A stretch of 64,000 bases of DNA from contig JAURYH010000035.1 in NCBI GenBank assembly GCA_030653975.1, positions 1 through 64,000 on the forward strand. The letters are read 5' to 3'. Below are positions 38,291 through 61,055 of the stretch, in pieces. Positions within the stretch are counted from its first letter, which is position 1. The number at the start of each line of letters is the position of its first letter. The DNA is from Hydrogenophaga sp. (GTDB lineage Bacteria > Pseudomonadota > Gammaproteobacteria > Burkholderiales > Burkholderiaceae_C). The position numbers were made by a program, and so were the translations under genes. The notes below the pieces were generated by a model that did no database searches, was not told the origin of the DNA, and saw nothing but the letters and a program-made list of their open reading frames with translations.

Positions 38291-39243
38291 ATGGCCCTGC
38301 ACCTGATCTCCTCTGCCGCCACCCTCAAGGCCATCAAACCGGGTGACCTTCGCCGCCGCCTCAGCGACGGGGGCGGTCTCTACCTGCTGCTCTTCGTCAA
38401 GGGCAGCGAGACGTGTTCCCGTGGATAGGCTCGCGGCCGATCACCTCCATTGCGCCCAAGGACCTGCTGGAACTGCTGCGGCGCGTCGAAGGACGCGGCG
38501 CCATCGAGACGACCCACCGGGTGCAACAGAACTGCGGCCAGGTGTTTCGCTACGCCGTGGCCACTGGCCTGATCGACAGTGACCCCAGCCGAGACCTGCG
38601 AGGCGCCCTGCCCCCGTGGCGCCCGGAGCACTACCCGGCTCTGACCGATCCGCGCCAGGTGGGCGCACTGCTGCGGGACATCGACGCCTACCAAGGTGGC
38701 TTCCTCACTCGCTGCGCTCTTCAGCTCTCGGCGTTGCTCTTTGTGCGGCCTGGCGAACTGCGGCGCGCCGAATGGAGCGAAATCAATCTGGACGCTGCCG
38801 AATGGCGCATACCCGCGCCCAAGATGAAAGGACGGGTGATGCACATCGTGCCGCTGGCGAAACAGGCGATGGCCGTGCTGCGCGAACTGGAGCCCCTGAC
38901 CGGTCCGAACGGCTGGGTGTTTCCGGGCAACCGGACCAACGGCGAGCCCATGAGCGAAAACACCGTCAACGCGGCGCTGCGGCGCCTGGGCTACAGCCGT
39001 GCCGTCATGACCGCCCACGGTTTCCGGGGCATGGCCTCGACCATGTTGCACGAGCTGGGCTGGCCGTCCGGCGTGGTCGAGCGGCAGCTTTCGCACGCCG
39101 AACGCAACACCGTGAAGGCCGCCTACAACCACGCGGAACACCTGCCGGAACGGCGGCGGATGATGCAGGCGTGGGCCGATCACCTGGACAAGCTCAGACG
39201 CGACCAGACACCCAAGACCGCTTTACACACAGCCACGAAGTGA
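38291..39243 (+). pseudogene. P4-type tyrosine integrase with internal deletion and frameshift
   Basis: Codons from 38291 give the integrase N-terminus (MALHLISS...AIKPGDLRRRLSDGGGLYLL) and stop at 38426. From about 38413, in another frame, the protein resumes at VFPWIGSRPITSIAPKDLLELLRRVEGRGAIE and runs to the end. The SAM-like segment normally between them (roughly 100-120 residues) is missing. The catalytic domain keeps RPGELRRAEW, HGFRGMAS and SHAERN followed by AAYNH, so the R-H-R-Y set is there. As it stands no full-length integrase can be made, so the island is probably immobile without help. Confidence 0.85.
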
Positions 39244-39288: not shown

Positions 39289-39912
39289 ATGCTTGCCGCC
39301 CAACCGACCACACAACGCAGCCAGGCGCTGGCGCTGCTGCAGCGGCGGGGAATGGCGCGACTGGCGGAGTTCAACGCGGCGGGCATCACGGCCGCCACGG
39401 TCAGCCGCATGGAGCGGGCAGGCGACATCGTGCGCATCACACGGGGGCTCTACCAGCTTCCCGACGCGCCCCTCGATGCCCAGCAGTCGCTGGCCGAAGT
39501 GGCCCGACTGGTGCCCAAAGGCGTGATCTGTCTGGCCTCGGCCCTGGCCTTCCACGGGCTCACCGACCACATGCCGCCCAAGGTCTGGATCGCCATCGGT
39601 CGCAAAGACTGGCGTCCCCGCCTGACCTATCCACCCATCCACGTCGTCCGTTTCTCTGCAGAGCTGCTGGGACGCGGTGTTGAGTCGCAGCACATCGCCG
39701 GCACGCTGGTGCCGGTGTTTGGTGTGGCCAAGACCGTGGCCGACCTGTTCCGGTACCGCCGCACCGTGGGTGATGCCCTGGCCATCGAGGGCCTTCGTAA
39801 CGCGCTGCGGCGGCGCAAGGCCACGCCAGCAGAGCTGGCGCGCGAGGCGGAAGCCGGGGGTATCTGGCCCACGATGGAGCCCTATCTGATGGCGCTGACG
39901 AACGATGCCTGA
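39289..39912 (+). CDS. AbiEi-family antitoxin / transcriptional regulator
   Basis: A 207-aa protein: an N-terminal winged helix (RGMARLAEFNAAGITAATVSRMERAGDIVRITRGLYQLP-type) and a C-terminal antitoxin domain (GVICLASALAFHGLTDHMPPKVWIAI, VPVFGVAKTVADLFRYRRTVG). This is the usual AbiEi layout. It would repress its own promoter and neutralise the downstream nucleotidyltransferase. It overlaps that gene by 8 bp. It is within the island, just after the broken integrase. Confidence 0.88.
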   Translation: MLAAQPTTQRSQALALLQRRGMARLAEFNAAGITAATVSRMERAGDIVRITRGLYQLPDAPLDAQQSLAEVARLVPKGVICLASALAFHGLTDHMPPKVWIAIGRKDWRPRLTYPPIHVVRFSAELLGRGVESQHIAGTLVPVFGVAKTVADLFRYRRTVGDALAIEGLRNALRRRKATPAELAREAEAGGIWPTMEPYLMALTNDA

Positions 39913-40759
39913 TCACAAGCGCGACATCGGCGCCTCCGTGCGCCAGCGGCTGCTGAACCTGGCGCACGCGCGAGGTCAACCGATGGACTTGCTGCTGACC
40001 CGCTATGCGCTGGAGCGGCTGCTGCACCGCCTGAGCCTGTCACCGCACCGTGAGCGCTTCGTGCTGAAGGGCGCGATGCTGCTGGTGACCTGGTTTGACG
40101 AACCCCACCGCGCCACGCGCGATGTGGATCTGCTCGGTTTCGGCGACCCGGCAGACGACGCCCTGCTCACCACCTTCCGGGAGATCATGTCGATCGAAGC
40201 CGACGATGGCGTCAACTTTGACCTGACGAACCTGCGCATCGACGCGATTCGCGAAGGGCTCGAATACGGCGGATCGCGCCTGCGCACCACGGCGGCGCTG
40301 GCGGGCGCACGCATCCCGATCACGGTGGACATCGGCTTCGGCGACGCCATCGCACCCGCAGCCCAGGACGTGAACCTGCCTGTGCTGCTGGACATGCCTT
40401 CGCCCCACCTGCGCGCCTATCCGCCAGAGACCGTGATCGCAGAGAAGGTCCATGCGATGGTGGCCTTGGGGCGAGCCAACAGCCGCATGAAGGACTACTA
40501 CGACGTGTGGATGCTGACCAGCACGTTCGACCTGGACCCGGAGCGCATGCGACAGGCCCTCGCAGCGACCTTTGTACGCCGCAACACGGGGATCCCGAAC
40601 CAGGTGCCCGACGGACTCAGCGATGCGTTTGCAGACGACCCGGCGAAGAGGCGGCAATGGAACGCATTTGTGCGCGACCTCACGGGACCTGTTCAGCAAC
40701 TGGACCAAGTGGTTGCCGACCTCCGGGATCGTTTGATGCCCGTTCTGGCGACGAGGTGA
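39905..40759 (+). CDS. AbiEii-type nucleotidyltransferase toxin
   Basis: A 284-aa MNT-fold toxin. Motif I is FVLKGAMLL, motif II TRDVDLL (the D-x-D metal site), motif III AEKVHAM, and IV KDYYDVW. All AbiEii motifs are intact. Related toxins (AbiEii, MenT) transfer nucleotides to RNA or proteins and give phage exclusion or plasmid/island stability. Translationally coupled to its antitoxin. The next 287 bp (40760-41046) contain no supported gene. Confidence 0.88.
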   Translation: MPDHKRDIGASVRQRLLNLAHARGQPMDLLLTRYALERLLHRLSLSPHRERFVLKGAMLLVTWFDEPHRATRDVDLLGFGDPADDALLTTFREIMSIEADDGVNFDLTNLRIDAIREGLEYGGSRLRTTAALAGARIPITVDIGFGDAIAPAAQDVNLPVLLDMPSPHLRAYPPETVIAEKVHAMVALGRANSRMKDYYDVWMLTSTFDLDPERMRQALAATFVRRNTGIPNQVPDGLSDAFADDPAKRRQWNAFVRDLTGPVQQLDQVVADLRDRLMPVLATR

Positions 40760-42057: not shown

Positions 42058-43320
42058 TCACAGTGATTCATGCTGGCCCAGCGCGCACACCGCGTCCACA
42101 AGCGCATCGGAAGGTCGGTGGATGCGAAAGAAGCCGTCCATGAGGAGCTGCGCGTTGCGTTCGTAGGCGACCCAGGGAAAAGCAGGTTCCCCCTCGGCCA
42201 CGTGGCGACCAAACACACGCGCCCGCAGAATGCCCGCCGGATTTTCCATGGCCACAGCGCGCTCGGCGGCGTGTGCTGTCAGCGGCTCCAGGCCCTCGGC
42301 GATATCGTTCGCGGTGGTGCCTGCGATCAGGCAGGCAGCGGCGAGGCAGCATCCGCCCGTCACGGCCAGCGAGGCGTGCGACTCCTGGGGCGTGAAATAA
42401 CGTGCCGAGATGTGCCCACCCTGGGTGGGTGGCGACACCAGACATATCTTGGGCACGGTTTCACTGGCGGCGAGCTCGTCCGCGGTCATGGCCACACCCT
42501 TCTTCTTGAGTTGCATGGCCAGGCCGGCCTGCACCCAGATCGCGCGCAACCGCGACCTGAGCGGCCCGTTGGCATTCAGGCTGGCCACCGACTCGTCACC
42601 CCGCAGACCCACCGCGTCGGCACGCAGGATCACCATCGGCACGGCCACGTCGATGCAGCTGACTTCGATGCCATCGAACACGTCACGCACCCGACCGGTG
42701 GGCAGCAGCAGACCGGTCTTGGCACCCACTGGATCCCGCAGGCTCAGCTCAACACCCGGAAACCGGCCATGGACCCCCGGAATCTCGGTGTCGGCCGGAA
42801 CCACCGGCACACCGCCCGGGGTGCGCACCTTGCAGTCCGTCACCACGGCGGTGTTGGTGTTGAAGATCCGGACGTCGGTGCTCGGGTCGCCCGCACGGAG
42901 CAAGCCGTTGTGCAGCAGGAACATCGGAATGGCCGCCGACATGTTGCCGCAGTTGACGCTCCAGTCGATGGCGGATTTTTCTGCGGCCAGCTGGGCCAAT
43001 GTGCTGTTGAAGTCGGCGCGTACGCCGTCGCCCGGCTCGATGATGAACACCTTGTTGCTGGTGGCCGGGCCGCGCCCCAAGCCGGTGATCTGCTTGTTGC
43101 CCTTGAACTCGCCCGACTCGGGCACTCCCATGATTTTTCGGATGATCTCTTCTCGCAGTTCACCGAACGGTGCCAGGTGCGCGCCCCAGAGGAGCACACC
43201 GGTGGACGTGCCGCCCCGCATGTGGCTCACCGGGAAGTGCAGAACGCCGTCCTGCAGGAATGGACCGGTGTCCAGCCATCTGGAGTGGCCCGAAACCGGG
43301 GGAGGCACGGTGTTGTTCAT
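42058..43320 (-). CDS. PrpF-family isomerase (aconitate/oxalomesaconate type)
   Basis: A 420-aa member of the PrpF/DapF-like fold family, which includes 2-methylaconitate isomerase, 4-oxalomesaconate tautomerase and aconitate delta-isomerase. Features: MRGGTSTGVLL near the N-terminus, VNCGNMSAAIP with the catalytic-type cysteine, and PQESHASLAVTGG. Full length for the family. With TcuAB upstream it is likely to move the double bond of an aconitate. It follows the two CHR-transporter genes by 57 bp and is one of two PrpF domains in the cluster. Confidence 0.8.
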   Translation of the reverse strand: MNNTVPPPVSGHSRWLDTGPFLQDGVLHFPVSHMRGGTSTGVLLWGAHLAPFGELREEIIRKIMGVPESGEFKGNKQITGLGRGPATSNKVFIIEPGDGVRADFNSTLAQLAAEKSAIDWSVNCGNMSAAIPMFLLHNGLLRAGDPSTDVRIFNTNTAVVTDCKVRTPGGVPVVPADTEIPGVHGRFPGVELSLRDPVGAKTGLLLPTGRVRDVFDGIEVSCIDVAVPMVILRADAVGLRGDESVASLNANGPLRSRLRAIWVQAGLAMQLKKKGVAMTADELAASETVPKICLVSPPTQGGHISARYFTPQESHASLAVTGGCCLAAACLIAGTTANDIAEGLEPLTAHAAERAVAMENPAGILRARVFGRHVAEGEPAFPWVAYERNAQLLMDGFFRIHRPSDALVDAVCALGQHESL

Positions 43321-43377: not shown

Positions 43378-43944
43378 TCACATCCAGCCCAGCCCGCCGA
43401 CCACCGCACCGGCGGCCAGCATCCAGAGCAAGTGGATGGACGTGCGCCACAACACCAGGGTGGCCCCCAGCACCAGCAAGGCAGCGGCCAGGGCGTTGCC
43501 GGCCGTCAGGCTGGGCGCCAGCAACAACCAGGCGGTGGATGCCAGGAGTGCCACCACCAGCGGCGTCAAGCCGGCCTTGAAGGCACGAACACCGGGGCGA
43601 GTCTGGTTGCGATGGGCCCAGCGGGTGGCCAGCAGCGTGAGCAGGGAGCTGGGAATCACCAAGCCCATCAGGCACAGCGCGGCCCCCAGAACGCCCAGAA
43701 CCACACTGCCCGCGTTCACGCCCACGTTCCAACCCATCAGCGCCACAAACAACACGTTGGGGCCGGGCGCGATCTGTGCCAGAGCCACCGACGAGGTGAA
43801 CTGCGGGTGCGTCAACCAGCCTTGTTCAACAACCAGGTAGCGGTGCATGTCGGGCACCACGCTGATGCCCCCACCCACTGAGAGCAGAGACAGCACACCG
43901 AAGTGCAGCAACAGACTCAGCCAGTCGGTTGGGGAGAGTGTCAT
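43378..43944 (-). CDS. Chromate-transporter-family protein, second half
   Basis: A 188-aa membrane protein of the short CHR family: SVGGGISVVPDMHRYLV and LAQIAPGPNVLFVALMGW are the CHR-domain signature (A-x-x-x-PGPN). It is normally paired with a partner half to make a two-subunit carrier. The ATG overlaps the stop of its partner (ATGA). It sits in a tricarboxylate operon, so it may carry an organic anion or sulfate/chromate; chromate resistance is not implied. Confidence 0.8.
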   Translation of the reverse strand: MTLSPTDWLSLLLHFGVLSLLSVGGGISVVPDMHRYLVVEQGWLTHPQFTSSVALAQIAPGPNVLFVALMGWNVGVNAGSVVLGVLGAALCLMGLVIPSSLLTLLATRWAHRNQTRPGVRAFKAGLTPLVVALLASTAWLLLAPSLTAGNALAAALLVLGATLVLWRTSIHLLWMLAAGAVVGGLGWM

Positions 43945-44585
43945 CACGGGCCGCCCCTTTCTGCCATCCCGCTGCGGACGATGCGGCGGTAGGTCCACAC
44001 ACACGATAGGCCACCGATGACCAACAGCACCCAGGCCAAGGGAAAGCGCATGACTGCGATGGCCACAAAGGTCGAGACAACGGCAAGGGCACAGAACGTC
44101 ACCCCACCGACGTGGGCTCGCAGCGCCGGGATGAGCTTGATGGCGGTCGTCAGGATCAGCGCCACGACCACCAGCCCCATGCCTTTGAGCGCTCCTTGCA
44201 CCACCGGCAGGTGCTGGAAGCTGGTGAAGGCCAGCGCCAGCAATCCAACAATGATCAGGGGAAACAGAAACAGGCCGAGCAAACACACCAGGGCGCCCCG
44301 GGTACCGAAACAGCGGTCGCCAATGATGACCCCCAGGTTCGCGACATTGGGCCCGGGCAGGACCTGGGCCACCGCCCAGTCCTCCAGAAAGGCCTCTTTG
44401 GCCATCCACCGCCGCCGCTCGATCAGCTCTCGCTGCGTGACCGCCATCACGCCACCAAAGCCCTGCAGCGACAACATGCTGAAGCCCCAGAACAGTTCTC
44501 TCAAACTGCGGGGCGGTGTGCAGGACGGATCGTCACCGATGATTCGGCTGTGGGCGCTGCTCATGTCGTGGACCCGCTCGCTCAC
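43944..44585 (-). CDS. Chromate-transporter-family protein, first half
   Basis: A 213-aa short CHR protein: LSLQGFGGVMAVTQRELIERRRWMAKEAFLEDWAVAQVLPGPNVANLGV holds the CHR-domain signature. About 5-6 membrane spans. The GTG at 44585 overlaps the stop of the upstream fusion gene (GTGA); an ATG at 44564 is the alternative start. Together with the next gene it forms the usual tandem pair. Confidence 0.8.
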   Translation of the reverse strand: MSERVHDMSSAHSRIIGDDPSCTPPRSLRELFWGFSMLSLQGFGGVMAVTQRELIERRRWMAKEAFLEDWAVAQVLPGPNVANLGVIIGDRCFGTRGALVCLLGLFLFPLIIVGLLALAFTSFQHLPVVQGALKGMGLVVVALILTTAIKLIPALRAHVGGVTFCALAVVSTFVAIAVMRFPLAWVLLVIGGLSCVWTYRRIVRSGMAERGGP

Positions 44586-46618
44586 TCCGGCACCGCTTCG
44601 GGCTGAAGGCCGGCCTGCAGCACCACCGCCTGCCAGCGCTCGGACTCGGCCATCAGCAGGTCGTGCAGTTCACCCGGCGTGGATGGCTGGATGTGGGTGC
44701 CGGCGGCCTCCATGCGGGCCGCAATCCCGGGGTCACGCAGCGCGTCGTTGAGTGCGCCGTTGAGCTGGCGAACCACCGCAGCGGGTGTCTTGGCCGGCGC
44801 AAACAGGGCATACCACTGGCTCATTTCCACACCGGGCACCCCGGCTTCCACCAGGGTCGGCACTTCGGGGAGGAAAGACAGGCGCTGCGGGCCGGCCACC
44901 GCCAGCGCCTTGAGGCGGCCCGAACGCAGGTAAGGCAAGGCGGTGAAGGCACTGGGGAACATGAGCTGCACCACCCCATGGGCCACTTCGGCGATGGCGG
45001 GAGCCGCTCCGGAGAACTCCAGGCGACTGAGGCGGGTGCCGGTCTGTAACTGGAACAGTTCGGCGGCGAAATGAGGCACCGTGCCTTCGCCGGCTGATGC
45101 GTAGGACAGGCGCGGCATCGATTCCCGCAGCAAGCGCACCAGTCCGGCAACATCGCTCACCGGCAGCTCCGCCGGTACCACCAGCAAGGTGGGCGAACTG
45201 CCGATCATTCCGATGGGCGAAAAATCGGCCAAGGGGTCGTAACGCAGCTTCTGCAGAGCCGGGTGGGTGCCGTGGGTGGCGATGTAGCCGAACAGCAAAC
45301 TGTGACCGTCGGGCCGGGCCGCCGCCACGTATTCGCAGGCGACCGAGCCGTTGGCGCCGGCACGGTTGTCCACCACCACCGGCTGGCCCAGTCGCTGGCC
45401 GAGATGACGGGTCAGCGCCCTGGCCATGGTGTCGTTGCCACCGCCCGCGCTGGTGGGCACGATGATGGTCACCGCGCGGTTCGGGAACACCGAGCCCATC
45501 GGAGTGCCCGCGCTGGGCACGTCCCGGCCATCCACCGTCTTGGGTGGGAACACGTAGCCCGGCAGGTGCAGCACCCCTTGCATGATCTTGCGCGCGGTGC
45601 GCACCAGCGCGGCACTTACCACCTCGCAGGCTTCGCCCTGGCCCTGCAGTTGCACCTCGACATCGATCTGGCCGGCGGGATGCAGCACCGTCAGCGGATG
45701 CCCACCCGGCTCGCGCGCCACGCCACTGGCCACCGTGCCGGGCAAGGCAAAGGCGGTGCTCACCCCGATGGCACCGGTCACAGCGTGCGACGCATGGCAT
45801 TTGTGCGGTGTGAAGTAACGCGAGGTGATGCTGTTGGACGAATCGCCGACGCTCACCAGCACCGGCTTGGGCACCACGCTGCCGCTCACGTCGCCCAGGC
45901 CCATGCGGCGCCCAGCCTCGAGACGCATCGCCTCGATGCGGGCCAGCAAAGTGGTGTTGGCGTCGAGCTCGGCCGGTCGCTCCCTGCCGCTGAGGCCGAG
46001 GTCGCTGGCGCGCACCACCATGAGCGGCATGGCCGCGTCGATGCAGGTGGCTTCCACGCCCTGGATCAGGTCGATGCGCTGTCCTGTGGGAAACAGCTGA
46101 CCGGTGACCGCACCCCAGGCATCCAGAAAATTCAGCAGAACCGGCGCAGCGGTGCCGGCCACGCCGTCGATACGGGCCACACCCTCAAAGGTCAGCTTGC
46201 CGCCCGGGGTACAGACCGTGGCCTCGATCTTGGCGCCGGTGTTGACGTTGTGGATGCGCACGGTGGTGGTGCCCTCCTGCGCAGGAATCAGTCCTTGGTC
46301 GATCGCAAACGGCGCCACCCCGGCCAGCATGTTGCCGCAGTTGGGGCGGGTGTCGACCGACTGGTGGCCCACCCCGACCTGGGCAAACAGATAGTCCAGA
46401 TCGCAGTCGGGCTGAGTTGACCTGGAAACAATGGCCACCTTGCTGTTGAGTGTGCTGCCACCGCCCAGCCCATCGAGCTGCAGCGGGTCGCTGGCCCCGA
46501 TGGCGCCGATCAGGGCCTGGTTGCGGTCGGTCTCGTCTTGCGGCAGCCAGTCGCTCAGAAAGAAGGGGCCACGCGAAGTGCCTGCACGCATGAGAACACA
46601 GGGAATGGACAGCATCAT
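44582..46618 (-). CDS. Fusion protein: PrpF-family isomerase + TctC/Bug solute-binding domain
   Basis: A 678-aa continuous frame. Residues 1 to about 358 are a PrpF-family isomerase: VLMRAGTSRGPFF, PNCGNMLAG (Cys94) and HKCHASHAVTGA (272-283). Residues about 376-678 are a Bug/TctC solute-binding domain: FPNRAVTIIVPTSAGGGNDTMAR, VVDNRAGANGSVA, PDGHSLLFGY, and LPEVPTLVEAGVPGVE. There is no signal peptide at the N-terminus or at the junction, so the binding domain would be cytoplasmic. An internal Met374 could start a separate binding protein, still without a signal. I know of no described precedent for this fusion. It is coupled to the CHR genes downstream. Confidence 0.85.
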   Translation of the reverse strand: MMLSIPCVLMRAGTSRGPFFLSDWLPQDETDRNQALIGAIGASDPLQLDGLGGGSTLNSKVAIVSRSTQPDCDLDYLFAQVGVGHQSVDTRPNCGNMLAGVAPFAIDQGLIPAQEGTTTVRIHNVNTGAKIEATVCTPGGKLTFEGVARIDGVAGTAAPVLLNFLDAWGAVTGQLFPTGQRIDLIQGVEATCIDAAMPLMVVRASDLGLSGRERPAELDANTTLLARIEAMRLEAGRRMGLGDVSGSVVPKPVLVSVGDSSNSITSRYFTPHKCHASHAVTGAIGVSTAFALPGTVASGVAREPGGHPLTVLHPAGQIDVEVQLQGQGEACEVVSAALVRTARKIMQGVLHLPGYVFPPKTVDGRDVPSAGTPMGSVFPNRAVTIIVPTSAGGGNDTMARALTRHLGQRLGQPVVVDNRAGANGSVACEYVAAARPDGHSLLFGYIATHGTHPALQKLRYDPLADFSPIGMIGSSPTLLVVPAELPVSDVAGLVRLLRESMPRLSYASAGEGTVPHFAAELFQLQTGTRLSRLEFSGAAPAIAEVAHGVVQLMFPSAFTALPYLRSGRLKALAVAGPQRLSFLPEVPTLVEAGVPGVEMSQWYALFAPAKTPAAVVRQLNGALNDALRDPGIAARMEAAGTHIQPSTPGELHDLLMAESERWQAVVLQAGLQPEAVPE

Positions 46619-48737: not shown

Positions 48738-49910
48738 TCATTCGTCGCCCAGCGCCAGCGAACTGGGCTGGCGCTTTTCCACGGCGTAGCGCAACAACGA
48801 TGCACTGCGGAAAATGCCGTGGGCAAACTTGCCATAAGGCAAGGTGGCGAACAGCGCCATCACCACACCCAGGTGCAGCGCCAGCATCAGGGCCAGTGCA
48901 TCGGTGCCACGCAGCCACCACAGCAACAGCCCGGTCAGGCTGGTGAGGAACAGGAGTGCGATGAAGCCGTAGTCCATGGGTTTCTGGGCAGCGTCGCCGT
49001 GCAGCGGGTGCCGCGACCATTTCAGGCGAAACAGCCCGGCCGTCCCGAGCAACAGGCTCACCCCGCCCACAGCGCCCAGGATCTTGGGCAGGCTGGGCAG
49101 GTCGTAAGGTGCTTCCCAGCCAAACACGTAGTGGTACACCGTGGCCAGGCTGGTGGCGGCAAAACACAGCATGAAACCGTAGAAGGTCAGGTGGTGGTCG
49201 CGTCGACGCGACAGGGTGTAGGCATCGTCCTCGTTGTGACAGCCTTCCCCGTGACCACCGTCCAGGTACTTGAGCGTCGCCACATCGCGCGCAGCCTGCA
49301 CCGCATCACCACCGGCCACCGCTTGCCCCGTCGTCGCGGGTGACACATCGCGCAGGAAGCGCGTGACGCCGATGCCCAGCGCCAGCACAGCCCAGAGAAA
49401 CACGGGCGCGAACATCAACACCAGCAGGTTATGCGGAAACAGGTTGTAGAAGTTTCCGCCCAGGTCCCCTCCCCACACGGTGCCGTTCAGCGCCAGGGCC
49501 AGCACCAGGAACAGCGCCAGTCCAACGGCCAGTGCGAGTGACATGGTCAGGCCATTGCGCTCGTAAAGCGCGCCCAGCGGCTGGGGCCAGGCATAGGCAA
49601 CATAGGTCTCACCCCGGACCTTCGCCATGGCCTGCGGCACATTGACCGCGAACTCGTGGGGAGGTGCGTATTGACACGCGTGCAGGCAGGCGCCGCAGTT
49701 GTGGCACAGGTTGGCCAGGTAGTGGATATCGGCTGGGCCGAATTCGAGCCGACGGGTCATGGCCGGGAACACCGCGCAGAAGCCTTCGCAGTAGCGGCAG
49801 GCGTTGCAGATGGCCATCTGCCGCGTCACCTCGTCCACCGAGGCCGATGAGGCGTTCGCCCCGGAAGCGAGTGACCGGGCGTCCTGCACCAGTGAATCAA
49901 GCGGCGACAT
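48738..49910 (-). CDS. tcuB: Tricarballylate utilisation iron-sulfur membrane protein
   Basis: A 390-aa TcuB/CitB protein. Two 4Fe-4S motifs near the N-terminus: [11 protein letters not shown] (about 35-45) and [11 protein letters not shown]. Several membrane spans with histidines follow. In Salmonella TcuB passes electrons from the reduced flavin of TcuA to the quinone pool. It overlaps tcuA by 14 bp. Confidence 0.9.
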
Positions 49911-51333
49911 GCCGACCCTCCTTGAGGCTCATCGCCGAGCGAGCAGCTTCAGAGCCGGCAATGCGGCCGAAGGCGGTTCCAATGGACATGCCGACCCCGG
50001 CGGTGTAGCCCTTGCCCAGCACATTGCCCGCCATCATCTCGCCCGCCACAAAGAGGTTGGGGCTGGGCGCACCACCGAAACGCACAGCGGCGGTTTCATC
50101 GGTCTTCAGGCCCAGGTAGGTAAAAGTCACACCCGGCTTCAGCGCATAGGCATAGAACGGGGCTGTGTCGATGGGTCTGGCCCAGTGGGTTTTCGCGGGC
50201 GTGAGGTCTTCTGTGAAGCAATCGTCCAGCGCGGTGTGGTCAAACGTGCCGACGCGGCAGGCGTTGTTGTAATCGGTCAAAGTTTGCATGAAGGTGTCTC
50301 TGTCCAGGCCCAGTTGCTCGGCCAACTCGGGCAGCGTATTGGCCTGCACGCCGGGAAACACCGGCGGCATGAAACGGCCAATGGCCTTGGCATCGATGAT
50401 GGAATAACCAATCTGCTCCGGCTGCTGAGCCACCAGGCGACCCCAGATGGCATAGCGCTTGGGCCAGAAGTCTTCGCCCTCGTCGTAGAAGCGCAGCGCA
50501 TCGCGGTTGACCACCACACCCAGCGAGACGCAGTCGATGCGGGTGCAGATGCCACCGTCGTAAAGCGGTGCGCGTGCGTCGATCGCCACCATGTGCGCCT
50601 GGGTCGGGTCGCCGATCGCATCGGCGCCGTGGTCGTCGAGCAAATGGCGCAGCAGCACGCCCTGGTTGAAACGGGTACCCCGGATCAGGAAGTTGTCGGA
50701 CGGCGTCTCGCCACGCTCGTTGATGCCCCAGGCTTCGCGCAACCATTCGCGGTTGGACTCGAACCCACCGGCCGCCAGCACACAGCTGCGTGCAGTGATG
50801 CGCTCGGGGCCGACGTACGCGGCGACAAAATGCCCATCGCGCAACTCCAGCCGGTCCACCGGTGCCTCATACCGGACCCGAACCCCCAGGCGCTCGGCGC
50901 TGCGGAAATAGGCGTTCACCAGCGCCTTGCCACCGCCCATGAAGAAGGCATTGGTGCGGGCCGTGTGCAGCGCGCCCGACAGCGACGGCTGGAAATGCAC
51001 GCCGTGGCTGCGCATCCAGGGCCGGCAGGTGCTGGAGTCGCGGATCACGCGGCGCGCCAGCATCTCATTGGTCAAGCCACCGGTGACCTTGAGCAGGTCT
51101 TGCCAGAATTCTTCTTCCGGATACGCGTCCACCAGCACGTCTTGCGGTGCGTCGTGCATGCAGCGCAGGTTGCGGGTGTGGGCCGAGTTCCCGCCGCGCC
51201 ATTCTTGCGGTGCGGATTCCAGCAGCAAGACGCTGGCGCCGGCTTCGCGCGCCATCAGGGCGGCGCAGAGCGCGGCGTTGCCACCGCCGATCACCAGCAC
51301 GTCGACCGCTGGACTTTCTTCTGTTCTTGGCAT
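49897..51333 (-). CDS. tcuA: FAD-dependent tricarballylate dehydrogenase
   Basis: A 478-aa flavoprotein of the fumarate reductase/TcuA family. FAD motif [43 protein letters not shown] is the TcuA-type active-site entry; [12 protein letters not shown] and [30 protein letters not shown] bind FAD. It oxidises tricarballylate to cis-aconitate. It lies 7 bp after the PcaB-like gene. A related substrate such as a methylated tricarballylate cannot be excluded. Confidence 0.88.
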
Positions 51334-51339
51334 GATGAT

Positions 51340-52692
51340 TCAGCGCCCCTGGCGAGCGGCCAGCACACGGTCCACCATCACACCGGCCTGGCCCAGGTGG
51401 TTCACCGGGTCACACAAGGATTCGAGCTGGGGGCGGGTCAGGTGCTGCTTGATCTCCGGGTGCGCTTCCAGGATGTCGATCAAAGGCCGGTTTTCGGCCA
51501 GCGCCTGACGGCACAGGTCGTACACCAGGTCGTGCGCATATTCACGGCCCAGGTAAGGGCCCAGGCCCATCATCACGGCTTCCGACATGACCAGCCCGTG
51601 GGTGATGTCCATGTTGGCGCGCATGCGGGTGGCGTCCACCTCCAGGCCCTGCAGCACGAACTTGGTCTGTTTCAGCGCACCCGACATGAGGCAGAAGATC
51701 TCGGGCAACGACACCCACTCGATTTCCCAAGGGCCTGTGGAGCGTTCGTGGTCGGCCACCATGGCGTCCATCAGTGCAGCGGCGTGCTGACGCGCCACCG
51801 AGATGTTGGCGTGGATGTAGAGGCAGGAAATCGGATTGCGCTTTTGCGGCATGGTGCTCGACGAGCCACGACCGGGGGCATAGGGTTCAAACACCTCGCC
51901 CACTTCGGTCTGCATCATCAGCTTCACGTCCATGGCGATCTTGCCCAGCGACCCGCCCACCAGACCGAGGAAAGCACCGACTTCGGCGATGGTGTCGCGC
52001 ACGGTGTGCCAGGAGATCAGGGGTTGCGCCAGGCCCAGTTCTTTCATGAGCGCCGCCTGGGTTTCCATCGCGCCCTTGTCCAGCGACGACAGCGTGCCCG
52101 AAGCACCACCGAACTCACCCATGAACACGCGCGGCTTGAGCTGCTGCAGACGTTCGCGGTGGCGCTCGATGCCGGCCAGGATGCTGGCCATCTTGTAGCC
52201 GAAGGTGATGGGTGTGGCCTGCTGGAGGTTGGAGCGTCCGATGACGGGTGTGTCGCGGTACTTCTGTGCCAGCGCCGCCAATGCGTCGGAAATGTCCTTG
52301 AGGTCCTGCTCGACCAGCGCGAGACCCTCGCGCATCTGCAGCACCGCGGCGGTGTCGGTGATGTCCTGTGTGGTCGCGCCCCAATGGCAGTACTCGCCCA
52401 GGCGGTCGCGGCAGTTGGCGTTGATCTGGTTGACCACCGCGATGATCGGATAGCCGATCTGCTCGGTCTTGGCCTTGAGCTGGTCCCAGTCGATCATGGA
52501 CAGCTCGCAGTGCTGGACGATCTCGTCGGCGGCTTCCTGGGGGATGATGCCCAGTTCGCCCTGGACCTTGGCCAGCGCGCGCTCGATGTCCAGGTACTTG
52601 GCGGTCCGGTTCTCGTCCGACCAGACTTGGCGCATGCGGCTGTCGCTGAAAATGTCGCCGAAGATGCGTGAGTCGATGATGGTGGCAGCCAT
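51340..52692 (-). CDS. Class II fumarase/aspartase-superfamily lyase (PcaB-like)
   Basis: A 450-aa lyase-superfamily protein nearest the 3-carboxymuconate cycloisomerase (PcaB) branch. Conserved regions are HWGATTQDITDT (103-114), GRSNLQQATPITFG (152-165) and the signature GSSSTMPQKRNP (276-287) whose flexible loop holds the catalytic serine. No other protocatechuate gene is near. The fungal trans-aconitate decarboxylase Tad1 belongs to this same branch, so in a cluster that makes aconitate upstream and consumes itaconate downstream, an aconitate decarboxylase role is a good hypothesis. The ATG at 52692 is used; upstream reading is antisense noise. Confidence 0.85.
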   Translation of the reverse strand: MAATIIDSRIFGDIFSDSRMRQVWSDENRTAKYLDIERALAKVQGELGIIPQEAADEIVQHCELSMIDWDQLKAKTEQIGYPIIAVVNQINANCRDRLGEYCHWGATTQDITDTAAVLQMREGLALVEQDLKDISDALAALAQKYRDTPVIGRSNLQQATPITFGYKMASILAGIERHRERLQQLKPRVFMGEFGGASGTLSSLDKGAMETQAALMKELGLAQPLISWHTVRDTIAEVGAFLGLVGGSLGKIAMDVKLMMQTEVGEVFEPYAPGRGSSSTMPQKRNPISCLYIHANISVARQHAAALMDAMVADHERSTGPWEIEWVSLPEIFCLMSGALKQTKFVLQGLEVDATRMRANMDITHGLVMSEAVMMGLGPYLGREYAHDLVYDLCRQALAENRPLIDILEAHPEIKQHLTRPQLESLCDPVNHLGQAGVMVDRVLAARQGR

Positions 52693-52718
52693 GGTGATCC
52701 TCAAAAAGTACTGGGGGT

Positions 52719-53540
52719 TCAGAAAGGTAGGCCCGCCAGGGCCAGAATGCGTTGGGCGCGCAGCACCACGGGCTTGTCGACCATGCGGCCGTCGACCTGT
52801 ATGGCCCCCTGGCCACTCCCGGTCTGCCAGGCACTGTTCACACGGGATGCCCATGCCAGCGTCTGGGCATCGGGTCGCAAGGCTTCGCGCACCACACTCA
52901 CTTGCGTCGGATGGATGCAAAGCTTGGCGGTAAAACCCAGGGCGCGGGCGTGCAGGATGTCGGCATTCACGCGCTCGATGGCAAGTTCGGGGGTGACCCC
53001 AGCCACCGGTGACGGCAGCTCGGCGGCACGCGAGGCCATGGCAATGGCCGTGGCGGCCGCATCGAGCGCGAAGCCGGGTCCGGGCAGGTCGAGGTCCAGC
53101 AGGTAGTCGATGGAGCCGAAGGCCAGGCGCGACACATGGGGCGCACGGGCGATGTCGTTCAGGCCCATCACGCCGAGCACGGTCTCGATCAGGGGCAACA
53201 CCTGCGCGCTGGGGGCCATCCGCGCATGAACCGCGGCGACCTGAGCCGCTGACTCGCATTTGGACAACATCACCTCGCGTACCGGTTGGGCCAACAGCCA
53301 CTCCAGATCGTCCGCGTGCCAGGGACTCAGGGCATCATTGAGACGCACGAGGATGGCGTCGAGCGCGGCTTTGTCCAGCGTAGCGAGCCAGGCGCCGATG
53401 GCTTTGCGGGCCTGCGGCTTGTCGGCGGGCGACACCGCGTCCTCCAGATCGAGAATTACCCGATCCGCACCGCTGGCCAGCGCCTTCGCAAAACGGTCGG
53501 GGCGGTTGCCCGGCACAAACAGGTAGGTGGTCGGGATCAC
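52719..53540 (-). CDS. CitE-like lyase (probable citramalyl-CoA lyase)
   Basis: A 273-aa HpcH/HpaI/CitE-family barrel enzyme: YLFVPGNRPDRFAKAL, ILDLEDAVSPADKP (metal-binding acidic motif), LPLIETVLGV with catalytic-type Glu, GSIDYLLDLD, and AKLCIHPTQV. Citramalyl-CoA lyase cleaves citramalyl-CoA to pyruvate and acetyl-CoA. The start overlaps the CoA-transferase stop by 4 bp. Malyl-CoA or another beta-hydroxyacyl-CoA is the alternative substrate. Confidence 0.85.
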   Translation of the reverse strand: MIPTTYLFVPGNRPDRFAKALASGADRVILDLEDAVSPADKPQARKAIGAWLATLDKAALDAILVRLNDALSPWHADDLEWLLAQPVREVMLSKCESAAQVAAVHARMAPSAQVLPLIETVLGVMGLNDIARAPHVSRLAFGSIDYLLDLDLPGPGFALDAAATAIAMASRAAELPSPVAGVTPELAIERVNADILHARALGFTAKLCIHPTQVSVVREALRPDAQTLAWASRVNSAWQTGSGQGAIQVDGRMVDKPVVLRAQRILALAGLPF

Positions 53541-54718
53541 ACCGCCCCCTCTTCGCGCAAGGCCTGAACCTGCATGGCGCTGTAGCCGAGGCCGCTCAGG
53601 ATGCTGTCGGTGTGCTGACCCAGTGCAGGCACGGCGTCCATGCGCGGTGCACCCTGGCTCCAGGAACCCGGCGGCAACAGGGCCGGAACCGTCCCCACCG
53701 AGGTGCCCACCTGGGTCCAGCGCTGGCGCGCCTGCAACTGAGGGTGTGCCCAGACCTCGGCCATGGTGTTCACCTGGGCGTTGGCGATCTGCGCCGTTTC
53801 CAGACGCAGCACCACGTCGGCGGCGCTGAGGCCTGCAAAGGCGTTCACGATGATGTCGTAGAGGGACGCACGCGCGGCCACACGCAGCGGGTTGCTCGCG
53901 AAGCGATCGTCAGTGGCCAGCGCCGGCTGCAACAGCACCTGTTCGCAAAAGGCCTTCCACTCGCGCTCGTTCTGCAGGCCCAGCATCACGGTCTTGCCAT
54001 CCCCGGCGGGGAAGGGGCCGTACGGGTAGATGGTGGCGTGGCTGGCGCCGGTGCGCTTGGGCGGCGCCGCGCCGTCGATGCTGTAGTACAGCGGGTAGCC
54101 CATCCATTCCGTCAGGGATTCCAGCATCGAGATGTCGATGTGCTGGCCCTGCCCGGTCTGCAGGCGGTGCAGCAGCGCGGCCAGGATGTTGGTGTACGCG
54201 TACATGCCGGCGGCGATGTCGGCAATCGACGGTCCGGCCTTGGACGGCGTGTCTTCGGTCCCCGTGACCGATACAAACCCCGCCTCGCTCTGGATCAGCA
54301 GGTCGTAGGCCTTCTTGTCGCGGTAGGGCCCGCTGTCGCCATAGCCGGAGATGTCGCAGACAATGATGCCCGGCTTGGCGGCGCTCAGGACTTCGTAAGA
54401 AAGGCCCAGGCGAGCGGCGGCACCGGGCGCGAGGTTCTGCACCACCACGTCGGCCTCTTCTTCAATGATCCGTTTGAGAATGGCCTGCGCCTCGGGGTTC
54501 TTGACGTCCAGCGTCAGGCTTTCCTTGCTGCGGTTGGTCCAGACGAAGTGCGAGGCGATGCCCCGCACGCGGGTGTCGTAGCCGCGCGCGAAATCGCCCA
54601 CGCCGGGGCGCTCAATTTTGATCACGCGAGCCCCAAGGTCGGCGAGCTGGCGGGTGGCGAACGGCGCCGCGATGGCGTGTTCGAGTGTGACGACGGTGAT
54701 GCCTTGAAGCGGTTGCAT
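53537..54718 (-). CDS. Class III CoA-transferase (CaiB/BaiF family)
   Basis: A 393-aa family III CoA-transferase: MQPLQGITVVTLEHAIAAPF, RQLADLGARVIKIERPGVGDFARGYD with the catalytic Asp, and SGYGDSGPYRDKKAYDLLIQSEAG. It would move CoA from succinyl-CoA (or another donor) to the dicarboxylate, giving itaconyl-CoA or mesaconyl-CoA. Flanked by the MaoC-type hydratase and the CitE-like lyase, the same three-enzyme set as known itaconate-degradation clusters. Confidence 0.88.
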   Translation of the reverse strand: MQPLQGITVVTLEHAIAAPFATRQLADLGARVIKIERPGVGDFARGYDTRVRGIASHFVWTNRSKESLTLDVKNPEAQAILKRIIEEEADVVVQNLAPGAAARLGLSYEVLSAAKPGIIVCDISGYGDSGPYRDKKAYDLLIQSEAGFVSVTGTEDTPSKAGPSIADIAAGMYAYTNILAALLHRLQTGQGQHIDISMLESLTEWMGYPLYYSIDGAAPPKRTGASHATIYPYGPFPAGDGKTVMLGLQNEREWKAFCEQVLLQPALATDDRFASNPLRVAARASLYDIIVNAFAGLSAADVVLRLETAQIANAQVNTMAEVWAHPQLQARQRWTQVGTSVGTVPALLPPGSWSQGAPRMDAVPALGQHTDSILSGLGYSAMQVQALREEGAV

Positions 54719-54728
54719 GGTGTGTCCT

Positions 54729-55592
54729 TCAGCGCAACGTGGCCACGGCGTCCATGGTCAGCCAGCCCTCGTGGTCCTGGGCCCAGAGCTTCACCGTCTT
54801 GCCGTCGGCTTGCGGCGCGCCGTTGACACGGAACGGGTGCAGATCGAACGTGGGCCGCACCGCCTTGAAGCTGAAGCTCGCCACGTCGGCGCCCGGCAGA
54901 TGGCGGCGAATTTGGTCCATCAGCAGCGTGGCAATCAACGGGCCGTGCACGATCAGGCCGGGGTAACCTTCGACCTCCGTCACGTACTGGCGGTCGTAGT
55001 GGATGCGGTGGCCGTTGAACGTGAGCGCGCTGTAGCGGAACAGCAGCACGTCGTCCGGCACGATCTCCAGCTGCCAGGGCGCACCGGTGGGTGCGGCCAC
55101 GGGTGGTGGCTCCACATCGCTCGCCTGTTTTGCCTCGCGGTAGACGATGTCGTGAAACTCGACGACGGCAGGATCAGACGCTTCGTTGCACCGCAGTTCG
55201 TGGCGCACCTTCACGAACACCAGCTTGCCCGTGCGCCCAGCCTTCTCGGTGACATTGGCAATGGTCGAGGTGCGCTGCACGTCGTCGCCCACACGGACCG
55301 GCGAACGGAACTCGAACTGGCTGCCCGCCCACATGCGGCGCGGCAAAGGCACCGGCGGCAGAAAGCCGCCGCGCTTGGCGTGACCGTCGGCGCCAATCTC
55401 GCTCTGGCGATGCAAGGGCAGGAAGTACAGCCAGTGCCACAGCGGCGGCAGCGGGGTACCGCTGGCCACCGCCATGTCGGGGTGGTCCAGGGTGGCGTTC
55501 AATGCCTTGATCGGCGTGGCGCCAATGAGGTCGTTCAGGATTTCTTGACGACCGATCCAGTCGGCAAGCGGGTTGGGAATGGACATGGTCAT
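54729..55592 (-). CDS. MaoC-like mesaconyl/itaconyl-CoA hydratase
   Basis: A 287-aa double hot-dog protein of the mesaconyl-C4-CoA hydratase / itaconyl-CoA hydratase group. The N-terminal half has MWAGSQFEFRSPVRVGD; the C-terminal half has FRYSALTFNGHRIHYDRQY and YPGLIVHGPLIATLLMDQ, the hydratase-2 motif with the Asp/His pair. It would hydrate the unsaturated dicarboxyl-CoA to citramalyl-CoA. GGAG precedes the ATG at 55592; an in-frame ATG 6 bp later is possible. Confidence 0.87.
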   Translation of the reverse strand: MTMSIPNPLADWIGRQEILNDLIGATPIKALNATLDHPDMAVASGTPLPPLWHWLYFLPLHRQSEIGADGHAKRGGFLPPVPLPRRMWAGSQFEFRSPVRVGDDVQRTSTIANVTEKAGRTGKLVFVKVRHELRCNEASDPAVVEFHDIVYREAKQASDVEPPPVAAPTGAPWQLEIVPDDVLLFRYSALTFNGHRIHYDRQYVTEVEGYPGLIVHGPLIATLLMDQIRRHLPGADVASFSFKAVRPTFDLHPFRVNGAPQADGKTVKLWAQDHEGWLTMDAVATLR

Positions 55593-55643: not shown

Positions 55644-57659
55644 TCACTTCAGCGGCCAGGGGAGTTCGACAAAGCGTTGCAAGACACCGGCCGGGAAGTC
55701 CAGCGTGAGAAAGTGACCCAGGGTGACCATGAAGCCGATACACGCCCCCGCATACACCAGGCTCTTGATCCAGCCGATCTTGGTACGCGTGACGAGAAAG
55801 GCGGTGATGAAGATCGCCAGGGACAGGATGAATCCGATCAGCGCGTTCATGCCGAAGAGAAAGGCGAACCAGCCCACCGACGGCCAAACGCTGCTGCCGT
55901 CGTGACTGTTGCCAACCCGCGCGGCAATTTCCTGGTCACAGTGGGTCGAATGCCCAGGCGCGCCACTGGCCAGCTTCCAGACGATGAAGCCGGTGAAGAA
56001 CAGCATCAGCAGCGAAGTGGACAGCGGAAACACCGCGCCCAGGAACGACAGCGGGTAGCTGCTGGCTGCGCCGTAGCCAAACAGAATCAGCACGATCACG
56101 GCGAACACCAGCTGGGGCATACGCTCGGACAGCGTGCGACCACCAGCGGGCTCGGTGGGGGCCTGCACGCCCGACTGTGCACCCGTGGCCAGAGCGCCGT
56201 CTTCCGACACCCGGCTGCGCACCGCCATCAGCAAGGAAGCCACCGCCAGCGCCCCGATGATGAGCACACCCGGTCGCTGCAGGAAGCCCCAGCCGTAGAA
56301 CTGCAGCGCCTGATAGAGGTAGTTTTCCACCTGGCCCGAGAGCACGAAGCCGATCAGGAAGGCGGGGCGTGGCCAGCCAAAGCGGCGCAGGAAGATGCCG
56401 AGGATGCCGATGGCAAACAGCACCAGCAGGTCCGTCAGATCGCGTCGGGCCTGAAAGGCGGCAAAGCAGATCAGCATGATCATGGCCGGCGCGATCAGGT
56501 TGAACGGCACAAAGGTTAGGCGCGCGATGGGGGCGGCCAGCAGGAAACAGATAAAGGCGCCCACGATGCTGGCGATCGCCAGCGTCCAGGCAATCGTGTA
56601 GGTCAGTCCCAGGTCGGTGGTGACCATGTTCGGGCCCGGCTGCAGACCGAGCAGCACCATGCCCCCGAGGAACACAGCCATGGAACCGGAACCCGGAATG
56701 CCGAACAGCAGCGTGGGCATCAGCGCGCCACCTTGCAAGGCGTTGTTGGCCGACTCCGGCGCTATCACGCCGCGGATGTCGCCCTTGCCAAACTGGCTGC
56801 TGTCTTTGCTCGACTGCACCACGTGGCCGTAGGCGATCCAGTCGACCACGCCGCCCCCAAGGCCAGGAATCGCACCGATGAAGGTGCCCAGGGCCGAACA
56901 GCGCAACACGAGAAACCAGTGCTTGAACGTGTCTTTGACACCCTGCAGCCAGCCCGATCCCAGCGTGGCCTCCGAAGCGATAGGGCGGTGCCGGCGCATG
57001 AGTTCGGCCAGCTCGGGAATCGCAAACAGGCCCAGACCGATGATCACGAGGGGAATGCCGTCCTGCAGGTAATCCAGCTTGAGGTCAAAGCGGCTTTCAC
57101 CGGTGGCTGGGGCCGCACCGATGGCGCCAAACATGATGCCCAGGCCGCAGGCGGCCACACCGCGCACGATGCTGGCACCCGCCAGCACCCCCACCACCGA
57201 CAGCCCGAGCACGGCAAACATGAAGAGTTCAGCCGTGGAGAACATCAGGATGAGGGGCTTGGCCACCACCACGAAACCGGTGAGCAGGATGGCCCCGAAC
57301 ACACCCCCCATGAGGGAAGCCGAGAAGGCTGCACTCAGCGCGCGCGCTGCCTGACCCTTCTTGGCCAGCGGATAGCCATCCAGCACGGTGGCCTGGCTGG
57401 CACTGGAGCCGGGTATGCCCATCAGCACCGACGTGAAGGTGTCGCCTGTGGGTATCACCGCCACCATGCCCACCAGCATCGCGATGGCCGACACCGGGTC
57501 CATGCCGTAGATGAAGGGCATGAGCAAAGACATGCCGGCGATACCGCCCAGGCCGGGAAGAATGCCGACGCCAAGACCCACCACGATGCCCAGCAGCATG
57601 TAGGTGAGGTGCTGCAGGCTCATGAGGCCGACGAAGGCGCTCTGCATGGTTTCGAGCAT
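55644..57659 (-). CDS. Tripartite tricarboxylate transporter, fused large and small membrane subunits (TctA-TctB)
   Basis: A 671-aa membrane protein. Residues 1 to about 500 are TctA: GILPGLGGIAGMSLLMPF, GIPGSSASQATVLDGYPLAKKGQ, IGAIPGLGGGVVDWIAYGH and LFGIPGSGSMAVFLGGM, the paired P-G-L-G-G/G-I-P-G-S loops. Residues about 515-671 are a TctB-like four-span domain. TctA and TctB are usually separate genes; here they are one. It works with the TctC protein encoded 123 bp upstream. Confidence 0.88.
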   Translation of the reverse strand: MLETMQSAFVGLMSLQHLTYMLLGIVVGLGVGILPGLGGIAGMSLLMPFIYGMDPVSAIAMLVGMVAVIPTGDTFTSVLMGIPGSSASQATVLDGYPLAKKGQAARALSAAFSASLMGGVFGAILLTGFVVVAKPLILMFSTAELFMFAVLGLSVVGVLAGASIVRGVAACGLGIMFGAIGAAPATGESRFDLKLDYLQDGIPLVIIGLGLFAIPELAELMRRHRPIASEATLGSGWLQGVKDTFKHWFLVLRCSALGTFIGAIPGLGGGVVDWIAYGHVVQSSKDSSQFGKGDIRGVIAPESANNALQGGALMPTLLFGIPGSGSMAVFLGGMVLLGLQPGPNMVTTDLGLTYTIAWTLAIASIVGAFICFLLAAPIARLTFVPFNLIAPAMIMLICFAAFQARRDLTDLLVLFAIGILGIFLRRFGWPRPAFLIGFVLSGQVENYLYQALQFYGWGFLQRPGVLIIGALAVASLLMAVRSRVSEDGALATGAQSGVQAPTEPAGGRTLSERMPQLVFAVIVLILFGYGAASSYPLSFLGAVFPLSTSLLMLFFTGFIVWKLASGAPGHSTHCDQEIAARVGNSHDGSSVWPSVGWFAFLFGMNALIGFILSLAIFITAFLVTRTKIGWIKSLVYAGACIGFMVTLGHFLTLDFPAGVLQRFVELPWPLK

Positions 57660-60111: not shown

Positions 60112-61055
60112 TCACATGATCCCGATGTGTTGATGAATCCGGGCCAGCAGCACCTCGAAATCCGGCTGCCCGTGGTAATACAGCGCTTGGGTTTTTCGGT
60201 ATTCCCTTGCAAAAAGCTCACGCTGCATCGGGTCGGCAAGGACGAACGCGGGGTTCTGGGCGATCACCTGCTCGTCGCCACTTCGAAAGCGCTGGGCTTT
60301 GCGTTCCTGGTAGGCGGACTCCCGCATGAAGGCCTGCACTTCCTCCAAGCCGAGTAGGCAGTAGACGTCGTAGTAGTGCCTCAGGAAGTTGCCAGGGAAC
60401 GTCTGCGCTTCTCCCAAACGGCGAAATTTGGTGGAGATCGTCTGGAGCTTCTCGACGAAGGTATGGGTCGGCGCGTAGCAAGGCACGGCCACGGCCCTGT
60501 TGTCGAACAACTGGAGACCGCGGTCACGAGCCAGATCCAGAGCCCACGACGACATGGTGACCGGCCGGTTGGGCGCCGTGTCGTCAAACCCCAGCTCCAG
60601 CAAGATGCCGTCTTTGACCCCTGTCACTGCAGCTATGCGCGAGGCACAGATCAGGCGGATGCCTGCGCTGCGCATCTTGTCGTCGTCGAACTGCGTGTCG
60701 CGCTCCACACTCTCGACACCCGGGATCGCGATGCGATCTGCCAGTTCGTCGTAGTAAGCGCGGCGCGAAGCGATGTGTGCCGGCTTGTCATGGTTGCACC
60801 CCGACATCACATGCATGCCGTCGGGCGGATCAATGCGAATGTCGATGTCTTCAGAGAAGCGGTGGATGACCCCAAAGCCCTTGGACAAGGAGGTGCCTCC
60901 CTTCAACTCGAACTGGAAGCCCTGGGCTTGCAAGCCCCACAGGCAATGCATGATCCAGTAGTCTTTTTCGACCAACATGGGTCGAGTCCGCGCTCATCGG
61001 CCACCACGGCGAGCAGTTGGTCAGAGTCCCGCCGATCGTGCAGGAAGTCAGGCAC
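60112..61055 (-). pseudogene. AbiEii-type nucleotidyltransferase, frameshifted near the N-terminus
   Basis: The main frame from ATG 60978 gives 288 aa with the toxin motifs ELKGGTSLSKG, SEDIDIRI, FVEKLQTIS and YYDVYCL. Upstream, in another frame starting at GTG 61055 inside the antitoxin stop region, about 25 residues (VPDFLHDRRDSDQLLAVVAD and on to GLDP) match the usual N-terminus of this family. The two parts would join at GLDP-MLVEKDYW if one base were added near 60980. So a 1-nt deletion seems to have broken the gene. A shortened protein from 60978 has no ribosome site. Confidence 0.7.

Follow-up and report, generated by a model that had tools for sequence, protein, structure and literature searches.

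A PrpF-family isomerase fused to a Bug-type solute-binding domain in Hydrogenophaga and other Burkholderiales

We analysed a stretch of 64,000 nucleotides from Hydrogenophaga sp. (contig JAURYH010000035.1, positions 1 to 64,000; hereafter the window), in which a single minus-strand gene at 44582-46618 joins a PrpF-family isomerase to a solute-binding domain of the Bug/TctC family. The original prediction, made from the letters of the window, had described this gene as one uninterrupted frame without a signal peptide in front of the binding domain, and both statements were confirmed. Comparison with related loci showed that the PrpF-Bug fusion is an established family of Burkholderiales, and the relocation of its binding domain from the periplasm to the cytoplasm is strongly supported by sequence comparison. 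We lean towards the reading that the protein is a cytosolic aconitate delta-isomerase carrying, on a linker, a formerly periplasmic Bug domain that would bind (trans-)aconitate. Both domain families are known. The architecture, the relatives with a nested second start and the relocation are new as far as the open-licence PubMed Central (PMC) literature shows, in which no paper title on a PrpF-Bug fusion was found among the matches listed.

Domains and distribution of the fused gene

The frame starts with ATG and encodes 678 amino acids (aa). Pfam profiles detected a full-length PrpF domain at residues 2-353 (45560-46615; expectation value (E) 1.4e-107, 360 bits, profile positions 1-371 of 371) and a TctC match at residues 399-670 (E 6.9e-58). 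The Bug/TctC domain as a whole covers residues 388-670 (44609-45457), and a linker of residues 354-387 (45458-45559) lies between the two. The closest solved structure of the PrpF domain is E. coli YbhH (6otv, E 4.3e-117), followed by LigU (6p3h, 6p3j and 6p3k), and the fold search returned the same two proteins, with 53% and 44-45% identity over the whole isomerase domain. Residues K60 and C94 form a putative catalytic pair common to YbhH, LigU and the window protein. K60 matches LigU K66 in the alignment (the 6p3h sequence has Met there), C94 equals LigU C100 by the same offset, and both were invariant in all 63 sequences of an alignment of the window protein with 62 of the 80 relatives described below (A1). 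The solved chains of YbhH and LigU consist of the isomerase domain alone (350-365 aa), whereas the window protein adds the Bug domain.

For the Bug domain, a TctC profile and a two-lobed fold were both present, and the fold search led to BugE (2dvz, template modelling (TM) score by target length 0.93), AdpC, MatC and terephthalate-binding structures. The loop PTSAGGGND (residues 388-396; 45431-45457) corresponds to the carboxylate-binding motif P-F-x-A-G-G-x-x-D given for solute-binding proteins of tripartite tricarboxylate transporters (TTT) in the excerpted text of PMC5812351. P, A, G, G and D are kept in the window, and F is replaced by T in every aligned row. The window domain has the two-lobed fold of BugE, MatC, AdpC and TphC and a carboxylate loop that resembles theirs apart from the F to T change, but those are single periplasmic proteins, whereas it lacks a signal and is joined to an enzyme. 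An AlphaFold model built from the 63 sequences reached a mean predicted local distance difference test (pLDDT) score of 81.2 and a predicted TM score (pTM) of 0.51. Both domains are predicted to fold, while their mutual placement is left without a prediction, because pLDDT fell below 50 at residues 358-375 of the linker and pTM was low.

The original prediction had named a sequencing error as a possible cause of the fusion and had proposed a search for the same architecture elsewhere. A contig scan yielded 127 relatives, and in all of the best 80, which were kept, one open frame runs from the last part of PrpF through the Bug domain. The frame of L063 is broken further upstream, within PrpF, and L016 and L055 are truncated by contig ends. 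In the GTDB family of the window, a single match covering 620 or more of the 678 residues was found in 45 of 399 genomes, the own genome counted. The 41 of the other 44 that were retrieved and read all had a single frame, and G583, which had been split into two matches in this search, turned out to be uninterrupted too (L139). A sequencing error or a recent pseudogene was ruled out by the open junctions, by this distribution and by the substitution rates given below.

Outside the GTDB family, an order-level search with NCBIfam NF033377 (399 genomes) gave three fused genes (L115, L117 and L118) among 12 inspected places. In a class-level search of 369 genomes, none of the matches listed beyond the own genome covered both domains at E 1e-60. 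Among plasmid matches, Cupriavidus oxalaticus carries the fusion; two Rhizobiaceae records, from Rhizobium and Sinorhizobium plasmids, were rejected as fusions since prpF terminates at a stop. A long open frame, G357:C4, was rejected as well, with a stop after 375 aa. In RefSeq, one such protein (WP_162571173.1) is named only 4-oxalomesaconate tautomerase, so that its second domain goes unseen.

Three gene states and the loss of the signal peptide

We compared 120 loci, comprising 17 with separate genes, 34 fusions of type B and 69 of type A, the window included. Four damaged or partial loci (L016, L055, L063 and L155), 20 duplicates and two loci without a downstream Bug gene (L153 and L154) were excluded before tree building. 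Signal peptides were assigned by our own rule, a 12-residue Kyte-Doolittle mean of at least 1.45, which separates types A and B. Where the genes are separate, a stop closes prpF and an exported bug follows directly with its own start. A Shine-Dalgarno match of at least five bases precedes that start in 16 of 17 loci, and the rule detected a signal in 15; the remaining two, L148 and L149, look Tat-like by eye.

In type B, defined by its hydrophobic stretch, the prpF stop is gone and the single frame continues through a nested Shine-Dalgarno element, a start codon and a signal peptide. A GGAG element was found in 34/34 loci, at a spacing of 8 nt in 32 and of 5 nt in two. The glycine codon within it is GGA in all 34, although GGA makes up only 4.1% of glycine codons in these frames (the 34 included; without correction for relatedness). 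Between PrpF and the nested start, seven different lengths occur, from 8 to 21 codons, every one in frame. Because the element and its codon are conserved and all seven lengths keep the frame, it appears that the open frame and the nested start have both been retained. One type B frame is predicted to yield a cytosolic or membrane-tethered PrpF-Bug protein plus, from the nested start, a periplasmic Bug protein; alternatively, the exported Bug part would be released when the fused protein is cleaved at its signal.

Type A is a single frame that, by our rule, has no signal. In the window, the best 12-residue hydropathy mean ahead of the Bug domain was 1.26, compared with 1.50-2.64 in signal-bearing relatives, and the nested start and signal of type B are absent. 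A start codon with a match of at least five bases occurs in the same stretch in 11 of the 69 type A rows, in no case ahead of a signal-like segment.

Two separate-gene loci from a different family of the order served as the root for the tree of both domains. The first branches carry separate genes; type B follows as a grade that encloses type A, whose rows comprise a clade of 67 and, apart from it, L069 and L079, three origins in all. On the tree of Bug domains the type A state arises twice. Both are quick trees without bootstrap, with 30 of 117 and 53 of 160 branches open and two long outgroup rows that meet directly. On these trees, the signal was lost two to three times and the domain was retained each time. 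Separate loci also sit within the B grade (L137 and L138 on the both-domain tree, L148 and L149 too on the Bug tree), and therefore the fusion has, on this topology, been undone or has arisen more than once. In L137 and L138, prpF and bug are mutually out of frame, an apparent re-splitting of a fused gene. The original prediction had missed this series from separate genes through a nested signal to no signal.

The charge of the domain changed together with the loss of the signal. The median isoelectric point (pI) of the Bug domain was 5.87 in type A (68 loci, L118 omitted from the composition comparison), compared with 9.06 in the 34 type B and 9.06 in the 17 separate loci, and the PrpF domains had medians of 5.7 to 6.2. 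The ratio K/(K+R) was 0.23 in type A, 0.73 in type B and 0.62 in the separate state. Base composition of the genomes alone does not explain this shift, because 44 separate Bug genes from type A loci themselves had a median pI of 9.19 and a ratio of 0.77. Four loci, the extra type A origins among them, had Bug pI values of 6.4 to 7.0 (L061, L069, L075 and L079). The type A Bug domain carries the charge of a cytosolic protein, and the cytoplasmic placement foreseen by the original prediction is supported by the nested tree position, the pI and the Lys/Arg ratio.

A separate Bug gene lies directly upstream of the fused gene in 39 of 68 type A loci (L009, L010, L033 and others) but in none of the 34 type B and 17 separate loci. 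Where it is present, this gene may have taken over the exported role. Recent copying from the fused domain was also considered as the origin of the separate Bug genes in type A loci but found no support, as 39 of 44 fall outside the fused group and five beside it on the weakly resolved Bug tree. In the own genome of the window, no close periplasmic paralogue was found, the best other match having 35% identity.

To assess selection on the domain, Bug and PrpF distances were compared. Their ratio was 2.65 in type A (66 rows; L118, L079 and L069 omitted), 0.83 in type B and 1.00 in the separate state, which indicates that the Bug domain has sped up about threefold relative to PrpF in type A. In pairs of close relatives picked by hand, the median ratio of nonsynonymous to synonymous substitution rates (dN/dS) of the Bug domain was 0.108 for 12 type A and 0.102 for six type B pairs, and that of PrpF was 0.059 and 0.072. 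The ligand contacts of TphC, as given in the excerpted text of PMC8556258, served as a contact set of 14 positions, transferred through positions that we counted ourselves in an alignment with a related terephthalate-binding protein. In the 69 type A rows, 11/14 of these positions had one residue in at least 97% of rows, compared with 57/276 elsewhere in the domain (p 1.2e-05). The original prediction had held that absence of the architecture from all other genomes, together with disrupted residues in the binding domain, would refute it; instead, the architecture recurs and the domain is still under selection, with most of the mapped contact residues kept.

Neighbouring genes and the probable substrate

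The fused gene is preceded on the minus strand by genes in the order TctC-like, TctA, MaoC-like, CoA-transferase, CitE-like, lyase, TcuA, TcuB, LysR and porin, a set of trans-aconitate/itaconate type that the original prediction had also missed and that points to the substrate. The TctA protein (55644-57659, 671 aa; Pfam) is accompanied by its own TctC-like gene. Then follow a MaoC-like protein (54729-55592), whose closest structure is the itaconyl-CoA hydratase 8khg (E 5.2e-71), a family III coenzyme A (CoA)-transferase (53537-54718) and a CitE/RipC-like CoA-ester lyase (52719-53540), whose best match is an acyl-CoA lyase beta chain. These three gene types, which stand side by side in the window, correspond to the itaconate degradation enzymes CoA-transferase, itaconyl-CoA hydratase and citramalyl-CoA lyase, but the window genes miss the NCBIfam cut-offs and are relatives, not confirmed members. 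The lyase is a fumarase-superfamily protein with its true start within the span 51340-52719, and its top solved match is the trans-aconitate decarboxylase Tad1 (9h3i, E 3.5e-165), ahead of 3c8t, named Fumarate lyase (8.1e-140), and the best-scoring cycloisomerase, 1re5 (2.1e-114). Tad1 was likewise the top solved match of the lyase in the type B locus L170, the only other lyase compared. TcuA, a flavin adenine dinucleotide (FAD)-dependent tricarballylate dehydrogenase (49897-51333; NF006130), and TcuB, a tricarballylate utilisation 4Fe-4S protein (48738-49910; NF011607), were both above cut-off.

Neighbours of the relatives were counted within the fetched flanks, some of which end at contig ends, with the window left out. 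A Tad1-like lyase at least 45% identical to that of the window was found in 40/68 type A and 29/34 type B loci. The corresponding numbers were 37/68 and 29/34 for CaiB, 35/68 and 21/34 for CitE, and 20/68 and 26/34 for MaoC. TcuA or TcuB occurred in 15/68 type A, 3/34 type B and 9/17 separate loci, and none of the 68, 34 and 17 flanks contained a TctA with 35% or more identity to that of the window. A Variovorax record has CoA-transferase, CoA ester lyase and adenylosuccinate-lyase-family genes, followed by a Bug gene and the fused gene.

In Ustilago maydis, Adi1, a PrpF-family protein, and Tad1 convert cis-aconitate via trans-aconitate to itaconate, and trans-aconitate inhibits aconitase and fumarase, according to the excerpted text of PMC4720413. 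Because of this precedent and the Tad1-like neighbour, we took the PrpF domain as a putative aconitate isomerase. Aconitate is the likely substrate, since Tad1-like and itaconate-degradation-like neighbours recur and the window contains genes for tricarballylate dehydrogenase. Adi1, likened here by its description, is a 443-aa protein of the PrpF superfamily in a cluster with an itaconate exporter (same excerpt), whereas degradation-type genes follow in the window. Among the matches listed in the open-licence PMC literature, no title dealt with a bacterial trans-aconitate decarboxylase. The protein of 3c8t may be such an enzyme.

Proposed role of the tethered domain and alternative explanations

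Taken as a whole, the explanation that we consider somewhat probable runs as follows. Sequence comparison shows a separate, exported bug behind prpF, then loss of the intervening stop with the nested signal kept (type B), and then loss of the signal as well (type A). The resulting cytosolic allylic isomerase of the PrpF family, most likely an aconitate delta-isomerase (cis to trans and back), would be joined through a flexible linker to a binding domain derived from a periplasmic Bug protein. Within the cytosol, the tethered domain may bind a tricarboxylate, (trans-)aconitate or one like it, hold this aconitase-inhibiting intermediate near the isomerase and hand it on, as a buffer or channel; alternatively, it may be a reservoir or a sensor for the isomerase. 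More tentatively, a receptor would have become an intracellular enzyme domain by way of a two-compartment gene, and the Bug domain would act as a cytosolic trap or allosteric sensor of toxic trans-aconitate, feeding a route from trans-aconitate via itaconate to pyruvate and acetyl-CoA. A bacterial trans-aconitate/itaconate catabolic route is thus predicted. The three gene states are living intermediates of a change of compartment, with the charge shifting as the signal is lost, and they open to experiment the question of what use a binding protein has in the cytoplasm. LacI-type regulators are a known case of a binding-protein fold at work in the cytoplasm within a fusion, but they belong to another binding-protein family and are fused to a DNA-binding domain.

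Several results weigh against this explanation. The PrpF domain scored above the cut-off of NF033377 (4-oxalomesaconate tautomerase). Two LigA matches lie elsewhere in the own genome, whose only two PrpF-family genes both fall within the window. The Tad1-like lyase, CaiB, CitE and MaoC genes are found in 0/17 separate loci, where the context differs. The signature aromatic residue of the TTT proteins is threonine across the whole clade. The contact positions are also conserved in type B (13/14 vs 129/276) and in the separate state (11/14 vs 62/276), which shows a kept pocket and not a new use. In type A, position 514, the counterpart of a direct ligand contact of TphC, is variable, and positions 534 and 536 are changed. 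At least one cysteine was present in 28/68 type A Bug domains, 2/34 of type B, 0/44 of the separate Bug genes in type A loci and 8/17 of the separate state; this is a weak sign, since type A and the separate state were not distinguished (p 0.91).

Some of these results suit a role as a 4-oxalomesaconate isomerase, like GalD or LigU in the protocatechuate 4,5-cleavage or gallate pathway, with the Bug domain binding that substrate or an aromatic acid. The NF033377 score, the LigU structures among the closest matches, the LigA matches and the small number of PrpF-family genes all favour it. We nevertheless regard it as unlikely, as the window neighbours are Tcu, Tad1-like and itaconate-type genes with no ring-cleavage genes among them, and Tad1-like, CaiB and CitE genes recur next to relatives. 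The second PrpF-family gene (42058-43320, minus strand; unfused, 420 aa, found by Pfam and below the NCBIfam cut-off) is a candidate for the oxalomesaconate step and could serve it. A similarly low probability is given to a cytosolic sensor, in which ligand binding by the Bug domain would mainly regulate the isomerase or another partner rather than feed it. Bug proteins can signal, as periplasmic BctC works with a sensor kinase (excerpted text of PMC5812351), and the contact residues were retained while much else changed; on the other hand, no partner was identified, and the poorly predicted linker and the low pTM give no docked arrangement.

It is less probable still that the Bug part is a functionless, tolerated leftover of a lost stop and a lost signal. 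The faster change of the domain in type A than in type B and the variation at positions 514, 534 and 536 would be expected of such a passenger, but the dN/dS of type A and type B pairs is almost the same, and the contact positions are conserved in type A. Furthermore, of the 80 loci only L055, at a contig end, has a shortened Bug part, and the domain stayed each time that the signal was lost. The nested tree position, pI, Lys/Arg ratio, contact conservation and dN/dS together argue for a cytoplasmic domain that is still selected.

Of the roles named by the original prediction, channelling of substrate and sensing are plausible. It had further conceived a complex in which the Bug domain binds a transporter from inside, and had described the gene as coupled to two transporter halves. 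The coupling holds in the window, where the fused gene overlaps by four bases the downstream chromate transporter family (CHR) gene at 43944-44585 (minus strand; Pfam), next to a second CHR half at 43378-43947 (minus strand; NCBIfam). The two CHR genes occupy the same position in L004. However, this pair is context and not a conserved partner, with a ChrA-like gene beside 1/68 and a ChrB-like gene beside 2/68 type A relatives, and neither beside any of the 34 type B and 17 separate loci, as counted within the fetched flanks. The rapid change outside the contact set also argues against a conserved docking surface, and we consider such a delivery complex highly improbable.

Further features of the window were observed around the catabolic region. 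The TctA protein at 55644-57659 continues for about 235 residues past its TctA domain without a Pfam family and is possibly a TctA-TctB fusion. Genes for AbiEii nucleotidyltransferase toxins flank the region at 39289-40759 (plus strand) and 60112-60978 (minus strand). A 207-aa frame precedes the former and looks like an AbiEi partner by its position only. Adjoining this pair, the frame at 38413-39243 (plus strand) resembles by eye the C-terminal part of a tyrosine recombinase, and the region may be a mobile island.

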